From a virus: a DNA stretch of 42,011 bases. Below the pieces are notes generated by a model. It saw only the letters and a list, made by a program, of their open reading frames with translations, searched no databases and was not told the DNA's origin. Shown here in pieces: positions 223 through 20,156 of this stretch (within the stretch, counting starts at the first letter, position 1; the number at the start of each line of letters is the position of its first letter). The position numbers were made by a program, and so were the translations under genes. The stretch is taken from the IMG/VR virus record IMGVR_UViG_3300021963_000246, positions 1-42,011 of that record; one strand, 5' to 3'.

Positions 223-1119
223 ATGACTTTATTACCAAAAGCGGCACCTCGTGTCAATTATCTAAACAACAGAGACATCTTGAAAGAGATTCACCACAGC
301 AAGAACACCTATTGCTGGTATCGAGATCGAGCACTGGACCACCAATTTGATTTGATCCTACCTAGCCTGGACAAAATCAATCAACGCACCGTAGTGGAAG
401 CAAGAAAAAATCGTGCTGATCGTATCAAACGCGAAACAGGCGAAGTGATTGACCAAAAGAAAATTCCCAACACTGACCTGGTGTTTAGGATCACTTGCTG
501 GGATCATATCCCCATGGCGCCCAAAAAGATTACCAAAGCCGAAGCCAAACGCAAAAAGCTCGAGGACATCTTCGAACTGGACGATGTAGCAGAGGATCCC
601 TTGGCAGAACTGTTAGATGTGCCGGTACTGGATCTAAATCATGTGCGAGTGAACTTTCCACCGTTTGAACAGTACAGACTGGACGAAGACAAAAAGCCTT
701 ACATTGTGGGCCGTAGTCACTGGAAAGGTGATTTAGAAACTGGAGAGTTTTCTAAGGATCACGGCGAGATGACCAAAAAGCTGGCACTGATGTTTATGAA
801 ACTGTGCGAACGCTACGCCACTCGTTCTAACTGGCGCGGCTACACCTACAACGAAGAAATGCGTGGACAAGCTCTACTTCAACTTAGTCAAATTGGTCTT
901 CAATTTGACGAATCAAAATCGCAAAATCCCTTTGCTTACTATACCGCTGCTATCACTAATAGTTTTACACGAATTCTTAACATTGAAAAGAAAAATCAAA
1001 ATATCAGAGATGACATCCTGGAGATGAACGGCCTTAACCCATCGTGGACTAGACAGAACTCCGGCAAAGCTGGCATGGCTGCCATGTCCGGACCGGTTGT
1101 ATCTAGCTTGGATGAGTAG
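223..1119 (+). CDS. 55: Late-transcription sigma factor, T4 gp55-like, with a large internal insertion
   Basis: This 298-residue protein is a phage sigma factor that directs host RNA polymerase to TATAAATA-type late promoters. The N-terminus has NYLNNRDILKEI, which matches the NYVNNKELLQAI-type start of T4 gp55 as I recall it. The sigma region-2-like part runs from about residue 181 to 265 (TKKLALMFMKL, NWRGYTYNEEM, FDESKSQNPFAYYTAA, RILNIEKKNQ). T4 gp55 is about 185 residues. Here roughly 130 extra residues lie between the N-terminal helix and region 2, including a Lys-rich helix and an acidic stretch. The C-terminus ends in VSSLDE and appears to lack the hydrophobic clamp-binding tail of T4 gp55. 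The AAGGAGA site is 12 nt from the ATG. The gene heads the gp55-gp47-gp46 cluster. Confidence 0.85.
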   Translation: MTLLPKAAPRVNYLNNRDILKEIHHSKNTYCWYRDRALDHQFDLILPSLDKINQRTVVEARKNRADRIKRETGEVIDQKKIPNTDLVFRITCWDHIPMAPKKITKAEAKRKKLEDIFELDDVAEDPLAELLDVPVLDLNHVRVNFPPFEQYRLDEDKKPYIVGRSHWKGDLETGEFSKDHGEMTKKLALMFMKLCERYATRSNWRGYTYNEEMRGQALLQLSQIGLQFDESKSQNPFAYYTAAITNSFTRILNIEKKNQNIRDDILEMNGLNPSWTRQNSGKAGMAAMSGPVVSSLDE

Positions 1120-2148: not shown

Positions 2149-3908
2149 TCCAAATACGCGACCTTACTGTTAAAAACTTTATGAGTGTGGGTGCTGCCAC
2201 ACAGGCTATCAATTTTGATCGCACGGACCTTACACTTGTGTTGGGTGAAAACTTGGATCTAGGCGGTGATGGATCAAGAAACGGCACTGGCAAGACCACA
2301 ATCATCAATGCCCTAAGTTATGCCTTGTATGGTCAAGCACTGTCAAACATCCGCAAAGACAACTTAGTAAACAAAACCAATGCCAAACACATGTTGGTCA
2401 GTTTAGACTTTCACATCAATGGCACAGACTACAAGATTGAGCGTGGGCGCAAGCCCAACGTACTTAAATTCTATGTCAACAACGAACACAAAGCCGCAGA
2501 AGACGAAGCACAAGGCGATTCAAGAGAGACACAAGATGCCATAGAGCGTATCATTGGCATGAGTCACGACATGTTCAAACATGTGCTGGCCTTAAACACC
2601 TACACAGAACCGTTTCTAAGTTTGAAGGCCAACGATCAACGCACTATAATTGAACAGTTGTTGGGTATTACCTTACTGAGTGAACGTGCAGACCGCATCA
2701 AAGAACTCAACCGTCAGACCAAAGATGCCATCCAGTCTGAAGAGTTTAGAATCCGTGCTGTACAAGAAGCCAACAAGCGCATTGAAGAACAGATTGCCAG
2801 TTTAGAAAAGCGCCGGACCATGTGGTTCAAAAAACAACAGGAAGATTGTGTAGGGTTTGAAACGGCCATTGGCGATCTTGAACACATTGACATTGATGCC
2901 GAAGTACAAGCACACAGAGACTTGGAAGCGTTTCACGTCAAGAAAAAAGCCATTGATGAGGCTAATCGATACATTCGACAAATTGCCGCAGATGATGTCA
3001 AGCAACAAAAACTTTTAGACAAACTTCGAACAGAGATTGCGGCCCTTGACGATCATAAGTGTCACAGTTGTGGACAAGATTTGCATGACAACAAACAAGA
3101 CGAACTCAAACAGGCCAAAGAAGAACTGTTGCGTGAAACTGCATTGCAGTTGTTGGCCAATGACACACAGCGCCAAGAGCATCAAGACACACTTGCCAGT
3201 TTGGGCGAGCTAGGCACCGCACCCACTGTGTTTTACGACACATTGGAAGATGCACTGAATCATCGCAACACTCTTAGCACCTTGCGCACTAGTTTGGATA
3301 CACGAAAAACGGAATCTGATCCATACACAGAACAAATTGCAGACATGCAAGGGCAAGCCTTACAAGTTGTAAGTTATGATCATTTGAATGAGCTCACTAG
3401 AGTGCAGGATCATCAGGACTTTTTGCTCAAACTGCTGACCAGCAAAGACTCGTTTGTGCGTAAGAAGATTATTGAACAAAATTTGAGCTATCTCAATCAA
3501 CGTCTAACACATTACTTGGATCGGATTGGTTTGCCACACACAGTGAAGTTCATGAACGACTTGAGTGTGAGCATCGAAGAACTGGGTCGTGAACTGGACT
3601 TTGACAACTTGAGTCGTGGTGAACGCAATCGATTGATACTCTCTATGAGTTGGGCGTTCCGTGATGTGTGGGAAAGTTTATACTCGCCCATTAACCTGTT
3701 GTTTATTGACGAGATGATTGACAATGGCCTGGACACACAAGGTGTGGAGAATGCCTTGGGTCTGTTGAAGAAGATGAGTCGCGAACGCCATAAGAGTATT
3801 TGGTTGGTCAGCCATAGAGATGAACTTACCAGCAGGGTAGAAAACATTCTCAAAGTTATCAAAGAAAACGGCTTTACCAGCTATAACACGGATGTAGAAA
3901 TTGCGTAA
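2145..3908 (+). CDS. 46: Recombination endonuclease subunit gp46 (SbcC/Rad50-like ATPase)
   Basis: This 587-residue SMC-type ATPase is the partner of gp47. Walker A (GSRNGTGKTT) lies near residues 43-52. Coiled-coil-like arms flank a zinc-hook CHSCG at residues 306-310. The ABC signature LSRGERN lies near 488-494, and Walker B (LLFIDE) plus a D-loop lie near 518-530. The order is that of Rad50/SbcC, and length is close to T4 gp46 (560). The ATG overlaps the gp47 stop. The 3' end overlaps the next gene's TTG start by 8 nt, so the radical SAM genes may be co-transcribed with it. Confidence 0.93.
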   Translation: MIQIRDLTVKNFMSVGAATQAINFDRTDLTLVLGENLDLGGDGSRNGTGKTTIINALSYALYGQALSNIRKDNLVNKTNAKHMLVSLDFHINGTDYKIERGRKPNVLKFYVNNEHKAAEDEAQGDSRETQDAIERIIGMSHDMFKHVLALNTYTEPFLSLKANDQRTIIEQLLGITLLSERADRIKELNRQTKDAIQSEEFRIRAVQEANKRIEEQIASLEKRRTMWFKKQQEDCVGFETAIGDLEHIDIDAEVQAHRDLEAFHVKKKAIDEANRYIRQIAADDVKQQKLLDKLRTEIAALDDHKCHSCGQDLHDNKQDELKQAKEELLRETALQLLANDTQRQEHQDTLASLGELGTAPTVFYDTLEDALNHRNTLSTLRTSLDTRKTESDPYTEQIADMQGQALQVVSYDHLNELTRVQDHQDFLLKLLTSKDSFVRKKIIEQNLSYLNQRLTHYLDRIGLPHTVKFMNDLSVSIEELGRELDFDNLSRGERNRLILSMSWAFRDVWESLYSPINLLFIDEMIDNGLDTQGVENALGLLKKMSRERHKSIWLVSHRDELTSRVENILKVIKENGFTSYNTDVEIA

Positions 3909-4752
3909 GATCAAAGTATTACACCTTGAACCCACCGATGTGTGCCAAGCCGCATGCCCAGCATGTGCTAGAGAAACTGACTCAAAGTTTCGCAAGGATC
4001 AAAAACATCATTTATCCATTGGGCACATACAACGACATTTCTCTGATCGCAGGATCAAGAGCCTAGACAAGGTTTTCATGTGCGGCAACTACGGCGATCC
4101 AGCCGCTGGTGCATATACTGGTGACATGTACAAATGGTTTAGACAGCTAAACCCCACAATCACACTTGGTATGAATACCAACGGTGCCATACAAAACACT
4201 TTCTGGTGGCATGAAATTGGACGCTTGTTCAATCAGTCCCAGGACTATGTGGTATTCAGCATTGATGGATTAGAAGACACCAATGGCGTGTATAGAAAAG
4301 GTGTTAACTGGACCAAGCTCATGCAAAATGCACAGGCATTCATTGAAGCAGGCGGTTCGGCACACTGGGATATGTTGATCTATCAACATAACGAACATCA
4401 AGTAGACGAGTGCGAGCAGCTGGCTCGCAACATGGGTTTCAAATGGTTTCGTGCCAAAGTCAGCAAACGACCACTAATTGGTAGACTGGAATGGCCACGC
4501 AGCTATCAAGCACACTCATTTGAAGGTGCTATAAAGTGTCATGCACAGCAAGAAAAAAGTGCGTACATAGATGCTCGTGGCAATCTTAGTCCGTGCTGCT
4601 GGATTGGTGCCACACAAACAGATTTTGTTCGCACTGATTCTGTAGTGGATTTTTATTCAAAGAAACATGCAACTTGTGTTGCAACTTGCTCAACAGATCA
4701 ATCACAAACAGCATTTTCAAATCAATGGCGTAAAGAGATAGAGTTATGTTAG
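3901..4752 (+). CDS. Radical SAM protein with SPASM-like C-terminus (copy 1)
   Basis: This 283-residue protein has the radical SAM cluster motif CxxxCxxC at Cys15, Cys19 and Cys22 (CQAACPAC), which binds the 4Fe-4S cluster that cleaves S-adenosylmethionine. Later core-strand motifs are CGNYGDP, MNTNG and FSIDG. The C-terminal GNLSPCCWIG followed by CVATC resembles a SPASM-type auxiliary cluster, as in enzymes that modify peptides or proteins. The start must be TTG at 3901: an in-frame TAG lies two codons upstream, and the next in-frame ATG would remove the cluster motif. It overlaps gp46 and, by 7 nt, its downstream paralogue. The substrate cannot be told from sequence. Confidence 0.85.
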   Translation: MRKIKVLHLEPTDVCQAACPACARETDSKFRKDQKHHLSIGHIQRHFSDRRIKSLDKVFMCGNYGDPAAGAYTGDMYKWFRQLNPTITLGMNTNGAIQNTFWWHEIGRLFNQSQDYVVFSIDGLEDTNGVYRKGVNWTKLMQNAQAFIEAGGSAHWDMLIYQHNEHQVDECEQLARNMGFKWFRAKVSKRPLIGRLEWPRSYQAHSFEGAIKCHAQQEKSAYIDARGNLSPCCWIGATQTDFVRTDSVVDFYSKKHATCVATCSTDQSQTAFSNQWRKEIELC

Positions 4753-5756
4753 CAACTTGGCATTTTCACATTGAGATCTCCAGCAAGTGTACCTTGCGGT
4801 GTCCTCGGTGTGCCCGCCAAGAAGTACCTGACAGTCTTATTAACACTGAATTAGATTTAGAGTTTTTTAAACGCAACTTCACTCCCGAGTTTGTGAGAAC
4901 CAATGTTGAGAAGATTACATTCTGTGGCGATGATGGCGACCCTATCTATGCACACGACTTGATCCCTGTAATTAGCTATCTTAAAAATATAAAACCTGTT
5001 GAAATTGTGATTGTCACTAACGGATCACACAAAAAATTAACTTGGTGGACTCAATTGGGTACTTTGTTGGACTCAAAAGATAGTGTTCACTTTAGTATAG
5101 ATGGATACGATAACGCCAGCAATAACTTGTATCGTGTAAACAGCGATTATGACAGCATCATTGATGGGTTACAAACATTGCGTAGCATAAGTGATTGCCA
5201 AATTGTGTGGGCTGCTATTGCATTCAAGTTCAACGAACATCATATAGACACAATGAAAAAAGTTGCCCGACAACTTGGTGTGGACAGATTTCAATTGACC
5301 AAGAGCACAAAGTTTGGCAGTGTGTATCCATCATATGGCGTGGATGATCCGTTGCAACCCAGCGTAAAATTTGTCAGCAGTTCACATCGCTTTGAACGTG
5401 AATTTACCCCTTTAACAGAAGCAGGCAAATGTACTGCGATTCCGCTCACAAACAACCGACTATTCAATCAAACTCAAAGTCGTAACGGTGTTACTCCGTT
5501 ATGCGAGATAGGCAACAAAGGATTGTACATTGATGCCCGCGGCAGGTTATTTCCTTGCTGTTGGGTAGCCAATAGATACAATCACAATTCAGACTGGCAA
5601 CAACTAGCAAACAACTTCGATCTAAACACAAAAACATTAACAGACGTATTAGCAGATAACTTTTGGGCTAACGAGTTCCAAACTTTCAAGTGGCAAGAAT
5701 GTCAAACCAAATGCTCTAGCGCATTAGTTGACGAAAACTACGCCACTTCTTGGTAA
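4746..5756 (+). CDS. Radical SAM protein with SPASM-like C-terminus (copy 2)
   Basis: This 336-residue protein has CTLRCPRC at Cys15, Cys19 and Cys22, the same positions as in the upstream gene. It also has the parallel motifs FCGDDGDP, VTNGS and FSIDG and a C-terminal GRLFPCCWVAN, then CQTKCSS. The two proteins are clearly paralogues, and this one has a longer middle part. The ATG lies inside the last codons of copy 1, so translation is probably coupled. No short precursor-peptide gene is visible beside them. Candidate roles are modification of a phage or host protein or peptide; this is inference. Confidence 0.85.
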   Translation: MLATWHFHIEISSKCTLRCPRCARQEVPDSLINTELDLEFFKRNFTPEFVRTNVEKITFCGDDGDPIYAHDLIPVISYLKNIKPVEIVIVTNGSHKKLTWWTQLGTLLDSKDSVHFSIDGYDNASNNLYRVNSDYDSIIDGLQTLRSISDCQIVWAAIAFKFNEHHIDTMKKVARQLGVDRFQLTKSTKFGSVYPSYGVDDPLQPSVKFVSSSHRFEREFTPLTEAGKCTAIPLTNNRLFNQTQSRNGVTPLCEIGNKGLYIDARGRLFPCCWVANRYNHNSDWQQLANNFDLNTKTLTDVLADNFWANEFQTFKWQECQTKCSSALVDENYATSW

Positions 5757-16860: not shown

Positions 16861-18057
16861 ATGTCACAAGAACTTTTAGAAAGTCGCTGGGGCGAGACCA
16901 AAGAAGCTCTGCTTGAAGGTCTGAACGGCACCAAGCGCAACTCAATGAGTGTTATCCTGGAAAACACCAAGCGTTACTTGAAAGAGAACGCAAGTGCTGG
17001 ATCAACCTCTTCTGGCAACATTGCCACACTTAACCGTGTGATTCTGCCAGTTATCCGTCGTGTGATGCCAACTGTTATTGCTAACGAGTTGGTTGGTGTT
17101 CAGCCAATGACTGGCCCTGTTGGTCAGATCCACACTCTGCGTGTTCGCTATGCACAAAGTTTGACTGATACTTCTGCTGCTGCAACTTCTGTTACAGCTG
17201 GCCAAGAAGCATTGTCACCCTTTACAATTGCTACTGCATACTCTACAGTTCCTCAAGGTACTACTTCTACCAATGCTTACACTGGTGGAAACACAGCTAC
17301 CATGGAAGGTACTGGCGGTAAGCAAATCAGCGTTCAAATCTTGAAACAAGCTGTTGAAGCCAAGACCCGCAAGCTGCAAGCTCGCTGGACTTTTGAATCT
17401 GCACAAGACGCACAAGCCATGCATGGTATTGACGTTGAAGCAGAAATCATGGCTGCTCTTGCACAAGAGATTACCGCTGAAATCGACCAAGAGATTCTTT
17501 TGAGCTTGCGCTCATTGGCTTCTACTGAGTTCACATACAACCAAGCTACCGTTTCAGGTACAGCTACATTCGTTGGTGACGAACACGCCGCATTGGCAGT
17601 GTTGATCAACCGTGTTGCTAACTTGATCGCCCAACGTACACGTCGTGGCGCTGGTAACTACGCTGTTGTTAGTTCAGCTGCTCTAACAGTGTTGCAAAGT
17701 GCAACAACTTCAGCTTTTGCTCGTACCACAGAAGGCACCTTCGAAGCACCTACAAACACTAAGTTTGTTGGTACATTGAACGGTTCTATGCGTGTGTTTG
17801 TTGACAGCTATGCTGCTGACACCACACCAGTTTTGGTTGGCTACAAAGGCTCTTCAGAAGCTGACGCTCCTGCATTCTACTGCCCATACATTCCGTTGAT
17901 GAGCAGTGGTGTTGTGTTGGATCCAACAACCTTTGAACCAGTGGTGTCATTCATGACACGTTATGGTTACATTGAGTTGACCAACACTGCAAGTTCGTTC
18001 GGTAACGCCGGCGACTATGTGGGTGAGATCGCAGTATCTAACTTGTCATTCTCCTAA
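16861..18057 (+). CDS. 23: Major capsid protein gp23
   Basis: A 398-residue HK97-fold capsid protein. The N-terminal region runs to about residue 42, where YLKE|N offers a likely gp21 site of the LxE type. IATLNRVILPVIRRVMPTVIAN near 55 and ELVGVQPMTGPVGQI near 76 are diagnostic. The C-terminal PYIPLMSSGVVLDPTTFEP and MTRYGYIEL match gp23. T4 gp23 is 521 residues, so this is a compact version, probably without the T4 insertion domain. AGGAG lies 6 nt before the ATG, and a strong terminator follows. Confidence 0.95.
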   Translation: MSQELLESRWGETKEALLEGLNGTKRNSMSVILENTKRYLKENASAGSTSSGNIATLNRVILPVIRRVMPTVIANELVGVQPMTGPVGQIHTLRVRYAQSLTDTSAAATSVTAGQEALSPFTIATAYSTVPQGTTSTNAYTGGNTATMEGTGGKQISVQILKQAVEAKTRKLQARWTFESAQDAQAMHGIDVEAEIMAALAQEITAEIDQEILLSLRSLASTEFTYNQATVSGTATFVGDEHAALAVLINRVANLIAQRTRRGAGNYAVVSSAALTVLQSATTSAFARTTEGTFEAPTNTKFVGTLNGSMRVFVDSYAADTTPVLVGYKGSSEADAPAFYCPYIPLMSSGVVLDPTTFEPVVSFMTRYGYIELTNTASSFGNAGDYVGEIAVSNLSFS

Positions 18058-18090: not shown

Positions 18091-18112
18091 AACCTGCTTC
18101 GGCAGGTTTTTT
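18091..18112 (+). terminator. Intrinsic terminator after the major capsid gene
   Basis: AACCTGC (18091-18097), a stable TTCG-type loop and GCAGGTT (18102-18108) run straight into six T residues. It lies 34 nt after the capsid stop and separates the head cassette from the desaturase gene. Confidence 0.9.
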
Positions 18113-18116
18113 GTTG

Positions 18117-18124
18117 GCTAAGTA
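18117..18124 (+). promoter_or_regulatory. Late-type promoter GCTAAGTA 5 nt before the desaturase ATG
   Basis: TAAGTA (18119-18124) is followed by 5 nt and the ATG at 18130. It is the same A-to-G variant seen at 8968-8975. There is no Shine-Dalgarno, so a leaderless start is predicted. Confidence 0.45.
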
Positions 18125-18129
18125 TTTGC

Positions 18130-18978
18130 ATGCGAGTATTCAGACACTCTGTTAGAGATATATTTTTGTTAGTTCAAACGTTGGTAACTGTGGCAGTGCC
18201 AATAATTTTTGCAATCTCTAATCCAGATGTTGTATGGTGGGTGTTGCTGTTACCGCTGCATGTGATGTTAATACTGTGTTGTAATAATACATCAGTACAT
18301 CATCATTCACATTGGGAAACATTCAACAGCAAAATACTAAATCGTGTGTACGAATGTGTGTTGTCAGTAGCAGGTGCAACTCCCGTACAAGTGTATAGAA
18401 ATTCACATTTGATTCACCACAAATTTGTAAACGATCCTCCGGTGAGTAAAGATATAATCAGCGTACTAGCCAACGGAACTGACGGTCAAGCCGAAAACGC
18501 CTGGAAATTTTGTTTGGGCTGGACTGTAAAAACTAACTTTTTGTATGGCTGGGCGACTGGCAAAATAAAATTAATGCCATTGGTTAAACTGGCACACTGG
18601 CAAAGAGAAGCAGGCACCCTGGCAGCGTTTACATTGCTTTTGTTGTTGCTGAACTTTGAATATGGTCTTTGGTGGTTTTTTGTAGTGTGCCCAGTCATGC
18701 AGTTTTTAAATGCTGCCTGGCATTACGGAGAACATTGGGGAGCCCATGATCGCAGAGGAGACACCACACAAGACTCTGTGGGCATATACAACTGGTGGTA
18801 CAATACGTTTTGTTTTAACTCAGGACTGCATCAAGAGCATCATCACAAGCCAGGTGTGCATTGGACTAAATTACCATCAGTAACGCCATTATTACATCCT
18901 GACAGAGTCACAGCCGGTGGCATGCACATTTTTAACGTGCCTTGGTCAGCAGATTTAAAAAAGTTGATTAAACTTTAA
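18130..18978 (+). CDS. Membrane fatty acid desaturase/hydroxylase-like protein
   Basis: This 282-residue protein carries the three histidine boxes of membrane di-iron desaturases and hydroxylases: H57-x3-H61, H93-x2-H96-H97 and H234-x2-H237-H238, plus WHYGEHWG near 197. Hydrophobic segments lie near 12-30, 35-52 and 163-195, so it should sit in the host inner membrane with the His boxes facing the cytoplasm. The family inserts double bonds or hydroxyl groups into acyl chains or carotenoid-like lipids; the substrate cannot be assigned. It stands alone after the capsid terminator and overlaps the convergent glycosyltransferase gene by 11 nt. It is a clear host-derived metabolic gene. Confidence 0.8.
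   Translation: MRVFRHSVRDIFLLVQTLVTVAVPIIFAISNPDVVWWVLLLPLHVMLILCCNNTSVHHHSHWETFNSKILNRVYECVLSVAGATPVQVYRNSHLIHHKFVNDPPVSKDIISVLANGTDGQAENAWKFCLGWTVKTNFLYGWATGKIKLMPLVKLAHWQREAGTLAAFTLLLLLLNFEYGLWWFFVVCPVMQFLNAAWHYGEHWGAHDRRGDTTQDSVGIYNWWYNTFCFNSGLHQEHHHKPGVHWTKLPSVTPLLHPDRVTAGGMHIFNVPWSADLKKLIKL
18955..18975 (-). terminator. Weak terminator for the leftward glycosyltransferase gene
   Basis: On the minus strand a 5-bp stem (18975-18971 with 18965-18961, AAGTT/AACTT) is followed by a run of T residues inside the end of the desaturase gene. The stem is short, so this is tentative. Confidence 0.35.
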
Positions 18979-20116
18979 ACCAACTGAGATATTGAGCTAT
19001 TTTCTTTGTGACTGACGCCCAGTCATCTTGTGCAGGCTGTCTGAATAGTCGTGCAGTTGAATACCAAGGGCAATCATCACGTCCTAACAAGTAGCGCCAA
19101 TCTGTACCAAACCAGTTGAGCATGATCCAAGTAGGTCTACCTAGTGAACCACTCAAGTGACTTACAGCCGTATCAACACCAATCACAACGTCCATGGCCA
19201 TGATTAAGGCCGCAGTGTCTGCAAAATTTTGTATGGTACCGGGAAATCTGCTTACACCAGCAGCCTCTAATGCAGCTTCTTCTTCCGCATTAGCATCAAT
19301 TTGCAAGTTAACCCACTCATACTGTGGATTGGACTTAATTAAGTCTAGCATCACAGGAAACGGCATGCCTTTGTGTTCATTTAACCAGTTGTCTTTTCTA
19401 CCACTCCAACAAAATCCCACTCGCATGCGATTCTTTGGACCCAGGCGTTGCAGCCACTCTTGTTGTTTGCCCATGTCAGCATTGAGATAGTTTACAGGTC
19501 TTGGCAAGTTTTCTAATGTCACACCCAAGATACCAGGAATGCTCATGATGGGAGTCCAGTAGTCAAATTCACCCACATCATCAATATACCTTCCAATAGT
19601 TTCAATCAGAGGGCTACCAGCAAACAATGGGATCAATGAATCAGTAACTTTGAGTTTGATCTTTGCACCCATTGTGTGTAGATTGTAAATGAATCTCACA
19701 AACTGAATATTGTCTCCGTGACCTTGTTCGCCTTCTACAAGTATAGTCTTGTCTTTGAGATCTTGCCCTGTCCATCTTGGCTGTATGTATTTGGGCAATT
19801 GACCAGCCAAGTGTTCATAGTTCCAACGAGTTTCATACTGGCGCCATCCGTCTCGATAGTTGCCCATTTGCAACAATGCCACAGCAAGATTAAATTGTGC
19901 TGTAGCCGAAGTGGGTTCTAGTATAATGGCATGTTGTAAAAATGGTAAGGCTCTAGCTGGTTGTCCGCATTCTCTCATGACATTGCCATAGTTGTTCCAA
20001 GCCGCTGATGAGTCAGGATCGTCGACAAATGCCTGAGCATAACATTTAAGAGCTTCCATTGGGCGATGTTGTGCTCTAAGGTCGTTGCCTTGAGCGATGA
20101 GAGTGTTAGTATCCAT
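18968..20116 (-). CDS. TPR protein with glycosyltransferase (GT9/41-like) C-terminus
   Basis: This 382-residue protein begins with about three tetratricopeptide repeats (ALKCYAQAFVDDPDSSAAW, NNYGNVMRECGQPARALPF, FNLAVALLQMGNYRDGWRQYE). A glycosyltransferase-like domain follows (LVEGEQGHGDNIQFVRFI, then VGFCWSGRKDNW and a C-terminal DVVIGVDTAVSHLSGSLGRPTWIML). The latter motif is typical of heptosyltransferase/OGT-like folds that bind nucleotide sugars. It probably modifies a host surface glycan or a virion protein. An ATG at 20140 is possible, but ATG 20116 is preferred because CTTAAATA lies 5 nt before it and inside the longer reading. Confidence 0.8.
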   Translation of the reverse strand: MDTNTLIAQGNDLRAQHRPMEALKCYAQAFVDDPDSSAAWNNYGNVMRECGQPARALPFLQHAIILEPTSATAQFNLAVALLQMGNYRDGWRQYETRWNYEHLAGQLPKYIQPRWTGQDLKDKTILVEGEQGHGDNIQFVRFIYNLHTMGAKIKLKVTDSLIPLFAGSPLIETIGRYIDDVGEFDYWTPIMSIPGILGVTLENLPRPVNYLNADMGKQQEWLQRLGPKNRMRVGFCWSGRKDNWLNEHKGMPFPVMLDLIKSNPQYEWVNLQIDANAEEEAALEAAGVSRFPGTIQNFADTAALIMAMDVVIGVDTAVSHLSGSLGRPTWIMLNWFGTDWRYLLGRDDCPWYSTARLFRQPAQDDWASVTKKIAQYLSWFKV

Positions 20117-20121
20117 GGCTA

Positions 20122-20129
20122 TATTTAAG
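20122..20129 (-). promoter_or_regulatory. Late promoter CTTAAATA 5 nt before the glycosyltransferase ATG
   Basis: On the minus strand TAAATA (20127-20122) is followed by TAGCC and the ATG at 20116. This decides the start over the ATG at 20140. Confidence 0.5.
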
Positions 20130-20156
20130 GTGCAATCCAAGCCATTTTACATTTTT

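Follow-up and report, generated by a model that had tools for sequence, protein, structure and literature searches.

The window, that is, the whole 42,011-base virus record analysed here, encodes a T4-like portal, protease, scaffold, gp23 and sheath, together with a gp55-like late sigma factor. The major capsid protein gp23 (16861..18057, plus strand; PF07068, E = 5e-97) matches that of Pseudomonas phage PA5oct (287 kb) at 67% identity and those of other jumbo phages of 350–470 kb at about 61–66%. Because of this resemblance we infer that the window is a piece of a jumbo T4-like myovirus genome related to PA5oct. The source phage is a giant bacterial virus known from environmental DNA alone. 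The window also carries a pair of adjoining radical-SAM genes beside an SbcCD-like pair (3901–5756).

The gp23 gene, which ends at 18057 and marks the upstream side of the locus, is followed by an intrinsic terminator (18091..18112, plus strand) consisting of a hairpin at 18091–18108, with a 7-bp stem and a TTCG loop, and six T; the stem is symmetric and the terminator can also be called on the minus strand. The sequence TAAGTA, a T4-late-type -10 core, is situated at 18119–18124 (plus strand) and is separated by 5 nt from the ATG (18130) of a 282 aa open reading frame (18130..18978, plus strand). No Shine-Dalgarno sequence is found between gp23 and this ATG. The 3′ end of the open reading frame overlaps by 11 bp a gene for a TPR/GT9-like protein (ORF 18968–20140, minus strand; probable start 20116, with TAAATA 5 nt upstream of the start). 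As this downstream gene is convergent, the 18130..18978 gene forms a one-gene unit. The first-pass annotation had described a single unit behind the capsid terminator, directly after the major capsid gene and with its own late-type box 5 nt from the ATG, and all of this is borne out.

The nine-histidine membrane protein

The 282 aa protein matches PF00487, the membrane di-iron FA_desaturase superfamily, at residues 36–258 with an E-value of 1.7e-25 and 90.7 bits (cut-off 29.7). Three histidine boxes are present: H57HHSH61 (HxxxH, 18298..18312), H93LIHH97 (HxxHH, 18406..18420) and H234QEHH238 (HxxHH, 18829..18843), all on the plus strand. H202, in the sequence YGEH (18733..18735, plus strand), is probably the ninth histidine ligand. 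In an alignment of 26 sequences H57, H61, H93, H96, H97, H202, H234, H237 and H238 are invariant, and H198 varies. Relatives with decayed His boxes, named in the first-pass annotation as the finding that would count against its reading, do not occur among these 26 sequences, none of which has lost a box residue.

In the AF2 model (pLDDT 84, pTM 0.85) there are four long helices, as expected for this fold. These form a four-helix membrane core (positions 8–30, 34–61, 154–174 and 176–209) with which hydropathy agrees, and the membrane segments are thus intact as well as the boxes, as had been proposed. Among the top Foldseek matches of the model are AlkB, a di-iron membrane enzyme (probability 0.97), and viral desaturases. 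The E-values are weak, 0.18–0.24 in PDB and 0.03–0.05 in BFVD, and as none is below 0.001 the fold match is taken as supportive only. A PDB sequence search gave His-rich noise only, and a PHROG profile search gave no match.

By its sequence, the window gene is an intact, selected, phage-borne gene for a membrane di-iron-type protein of the PF00487 superfamily, with predicted activity. A chance open reading frame or a decayed gene is ruled out, to near certainty, by the PF00487 match, the invariant histidines, the AF2 fold and the dN/dS values given below.

Relatives and position within PF00487

In IMG/VR, 38 loci of the window's desaturase family are found, with 39–100% identity, some of them on contigs 320 and 354 kb long. 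The dN/dS of the window gene against its relatives is 0.03–0.22, indicating purifying selection. In 24 of the 26 loci whose upstream sequence is long enough, the family member lies behind gp23, the exceptions being L039 and L048; four of the 24 have one to three genes between gp23 and the desaturase. A radical-SAM gene is found in this interval in L029. Divergence of gp23 correlates with that of the desaturase (Mantel r = 0.69). L012 has a backbone 87–93% like the window, with a desaturase that is 90% identical to that of L031 and 54% to that of the window. Desaturase alleles are thus exchanged between phage lineages, and the flanks and the capsid gene stay put.

A tblastn search of 50,697 phage records with the window protein gave zero matches even at E ≤ 10, and PF00487 is present in none of four cultured jumbo relatives. 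Among contigs picked by gp23 alone PF00487 is found in 4 of 18, and in 4 of the 6 that are 100 kb or more. The proposal that every clade member has a desaturase was rejected on the 4 of 18 count; a set of large contigs that are all PF00487-positive (15 of 15) was mostly selected for the gene. The earlier description of the gene as uncommon for a myovirus therefore fits isolates but does not apply to uncultured jumbo relatives. Acinetobacter phage MD-2021a (L215, CAKLQH020000002.1), an apparent desaturase-bearing isolate, was set aside because its trpB, btuB, baeSR and other chromosomal genes suggest that the record is a piece of a bacterial chromosome. Multiple copies are seen in some virus contigs: about four PF00487 desaturase genes in L224 (345-kb IMG/VR contig 3300027708_000012, 242000–260000) and three in one 524-kb contig.

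The phylogeny suggested by the first-pass annotation separates the window family from the DesC/DesA (delta-9) half of PF00487 (split 100/99). The family is sister (96/89) to uncharacterised rhizobial plasmid proteins, and MocD-like proteins and the CrtW reference are on the same side. The deep branches of the tree are long and two of its references, DesC included, are of provisional sequence, and for these reasons only its main split is used. The closest cellular relative found is a rhizobial plasmid 'fatty acid desaturase', e.g. WP_203431350.1, with about 26% identity. No cellular relative emerged from two conserved-motif scans of GTDB genomes; the scans used a few exact peptide patterns only, which more distant homologues could escape. 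The label "membrane desaturase" holds as far as a PF00487 membrane di-iron protein is concerned; a lipid substrate and desaturation itself are no more than probable, the tree position being the main source of doubt.

With the family on the MocD/CrtW side, hydroxylation or a substrate other than a fatty acid has to be considered. The protein could be a membrane di-iron hydroxylase, ketolase or small-molecule oxidase, whose target would be a head group, a carotenoid, an amine-bearing lipid or another host compound. Besides the tree, the profile scores of the family point this way (rhizobial proteins 122 bits, MocD-like 30, CrtW 9, phage DesA family about 2 or below). So do the neighbours of the rhizobial gene, none of which is an evident lipid-synthesis gene. 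Its operon, seen at L053:2125–8031 and L054:1570–8238, combines the desaturase-like gene with a class III aminotransferase, arginase, an EamA transporter pair, a hydrolase and a GNAT gene; the phage gene stands alone. However, the one operon gene sought in six large phage relatives, the aminotransferase, was not found there, in a search run without a positive control. CrtW (NF045690), the best NCBIfam model for the window protein, gives 19.1 bits against an equivalog cut-off of 350; the cut-off of the delta-5 DesA equivalog is not reached either. In addition, relatives hold a DesA-family desaturase in the same genomic position, as described below. Hydroxylase or oxidase activity of this kind is on balance rather unlikely, and an acyl desaturase is the reading we prefer.

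The post-capsid slot and its late-type box

Sixty listed related loci chosen by gp23 alone (gp23 81–96%) contain no member of the window's desaturase family, in a search whose positive control gave 32 of 32. In about 20 of them the position behind gp23 holds a homing-endonuclease family (NUMOD3 in the one tested), and elsewhere in the set glycosyltransferase-like or radical-SAM genes and structural genes are found. PA5oct has a Hef-like homing endonuclease at the same position. The post-gp23 site is therefore, as judged from gene content, a cargo slot in this jumbo phage group. Glycosyltransferase-like proteins in the slot, read by eye and with no Pfam match, are seen at L006:3274–4308, L029:7350–9309, L031:8914–9963 and L101:3707–4843.

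Six of the 60 loci carry behind gp23 a different PF00487 protein of about 235 aa, whose score with NF049918, the NCBIfam model for DesA-family desaturases, is 394 bits (cut-off 400). Among the matches listed, a scan for the DesA family gave 80 loci, and in at least 25 the gene lies behind gp23, at a distance of 66–1217 nt from a gp23 84–90% like that of the window. This second desaturase appears to be a DesA-family member, near the phospholipid desaturases (NF049918; Pseudomonas DesA), and its phage copies share the slot and the promoter type of the window gene. The window protein is a different lineage: the two phage families are not alignable (hhalign Prob 2) and lie on opposite sides of the 100/99 branch in the tree.

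The T4 late box, TATAAATA, is centred near -10, so that transcription from a box 3–7 nt before an ATG would start on the ATG. The window has both parts of a T4-type late unit, a TATAAATA-like -10 box (TAAGTA) and a gene for a gp55-type sigma factor. This gp55-like protein (223..1119, plus strand; phrog_12791, E = 6.5e-76) is likely the reader of the window's late box. Jumbo phage CBB is reported to have a similar box, ATAAATA (PMC5259590).

TAARTA ends 3–7 nt before the ATG in 17 of 23 distinct upstream sequences of the window's family (shuffled mean 0.28) and in 14 of 16 for the DesA family behind gp23 (shuffled mean 0.06). Strong Shine-Dalgarno sequences are absent in both sets. The same loci show the box at TPR/GT genes (17/17) and at one small head gene (10/11), and at none of the gp23 (0/22), scaffold (0/19) and protease (0/17) genes. 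DesA-family copies elsewhere in virus contigs have a TAARTA box in 17 of 27 cases. Both desaturase families are thus predicted to be expressed from leaderless late mRNAs. The slot, its DesA-family tenant and the leaderless prediction go beyond the first-pass annotation.

A site that takes homing endonucleases could also hold genes that do little for the phage. The desaturase would then be a host gene brought into a post-gp23 recombination and homing hot spot and tolerated there with little benefit, a possibility in keeping with the endonucleases of the related loci and PA5oct and with the desaturase swapped between L012, the window and L031. But dN/dS is low, all nine histidines are conserved down to 39% identity, and the dedicated late box is retained across lineages. 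Passive carriage is therefore improbable. Low dN/dS and recurrence of the late box across relatives also indicate that the arrangement is more than chance.

A probable late membrane enzyme and its possible role

The locus is best described as a self-contained late cassette in which a nine-histidine, integral-membrane di-iron oxidase occupies the post-capsid slot, most likely as an acyl desaturase for the host membrane; we hold this reading with some confidence, well short of certainty. Desaturation is the somewhat favoured activity mainly because the slot is shared with a DesA-family enzyme; in cells, members of this family introduce double bonds into the acyl chains of membrane phospholipids (PMC10634369). 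The presence of two separate desaturase lineages in one slot with one promoter type speaks for a common role in membrane lipids. As the slot also takes homing endonucleases and other cargo, the sharing by itself is weak evidence for this.

As we picture it, the phage late sigma factor would read the TAAGTA box, and transcription would begin on the A of the desaturase ATG or immediately beside it. The resulting mRNA would be leaderless, carry this one gene and be produced when the capsid is. The protein would insert into the host inner membrane and use O2 and electrons from host carriers. While virions are being produced, it would most likely introduce double bonds into the acyl chains of lipids already in the membrane. 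A more fluid membrane or changed curvature could result, serving assembly, lysis or growth in the cold. In 15 large relative contigs no Fer2 ferredoxin gene is found. A 273 aa Rieske-domain protein (L235:3004–3825), present in the 320- and 354-kb jumbo contigs, has neighbours resembling GTP cyclohydrolase, carboxytetrahydropterin synthase and PP-loop enzymes. It was set aside as an electron donor, since by eye this neighbourhood resembles a nucleotide-modification cluster.

Desaturases of phages have been described before, from cyanophages, from cryopeg and sea-ice viruses and from Lake Baikal. Cyanophage lipid desaturases, as cited in PMC11480375 (Roitman et al. 2018, ISME J 12:343), are phage-borne PF00487-type enzymes proposed to act on host lipids, and the window gene likewise encodes a phage-borne PF00487-type enzyme. 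In contrast, the window protein is outside the DesC side of the tree, sits in a jumbo post-capsid slot and finds no phage record by tblastn at E 10. The FADs that viruses of cryopeg brine and sea ice encode (PMC7300359) have intact His motifs and reach up to five copies per virus, with purifying selection for the cryopeg set, and a Lake Baikal Nitrospirota virus has an acyl-CoA desaturase with intact His motifs (PMC7678222). These are, like the window gene, uncultured-virus desaturases with intact motifs. PMC7300359 models 11 of 12 virus FADs as delta-9 SCD-like, and the window family belongs to the opposite half of PF00487. The portions of PMC7300359 and PMC7678222 used here describe no genomic slot or promoter for those desaturases. 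Within the reach of our tools, what is new is the enzyme lineage together with its place behind the capsid gene, the other desaturase found there and the way the box is arranged.

These results bear on how the phage group treats its host. It is quite possible, though a little short of an even call, that membrane desaturases were recruited into the post-capsid slot of this jumbo T4-like clade at least two times, from separate lineages and each as a leaderless, stand-alone late cassette, and that inner-membrane remodelling is a regular part of their programme. The data suggest that late change of the host membrane is a repeated strategy of this giant-virus group. Its signature of gp23 terminator, TAARTA box and ATG makes the slot easy to scan in a search for further late effectors. 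Phage lipid-modifying genes are usually read as stray host genes aiding early metabolism. An old, selected family in a fixed slot, with its own late-type promoter and a second lineage at the same place, makes late membrane remodelling testable. If this is true, inner-membrane remodelling during virion production would be routine in these phages, and not the effect of a stray host gene.
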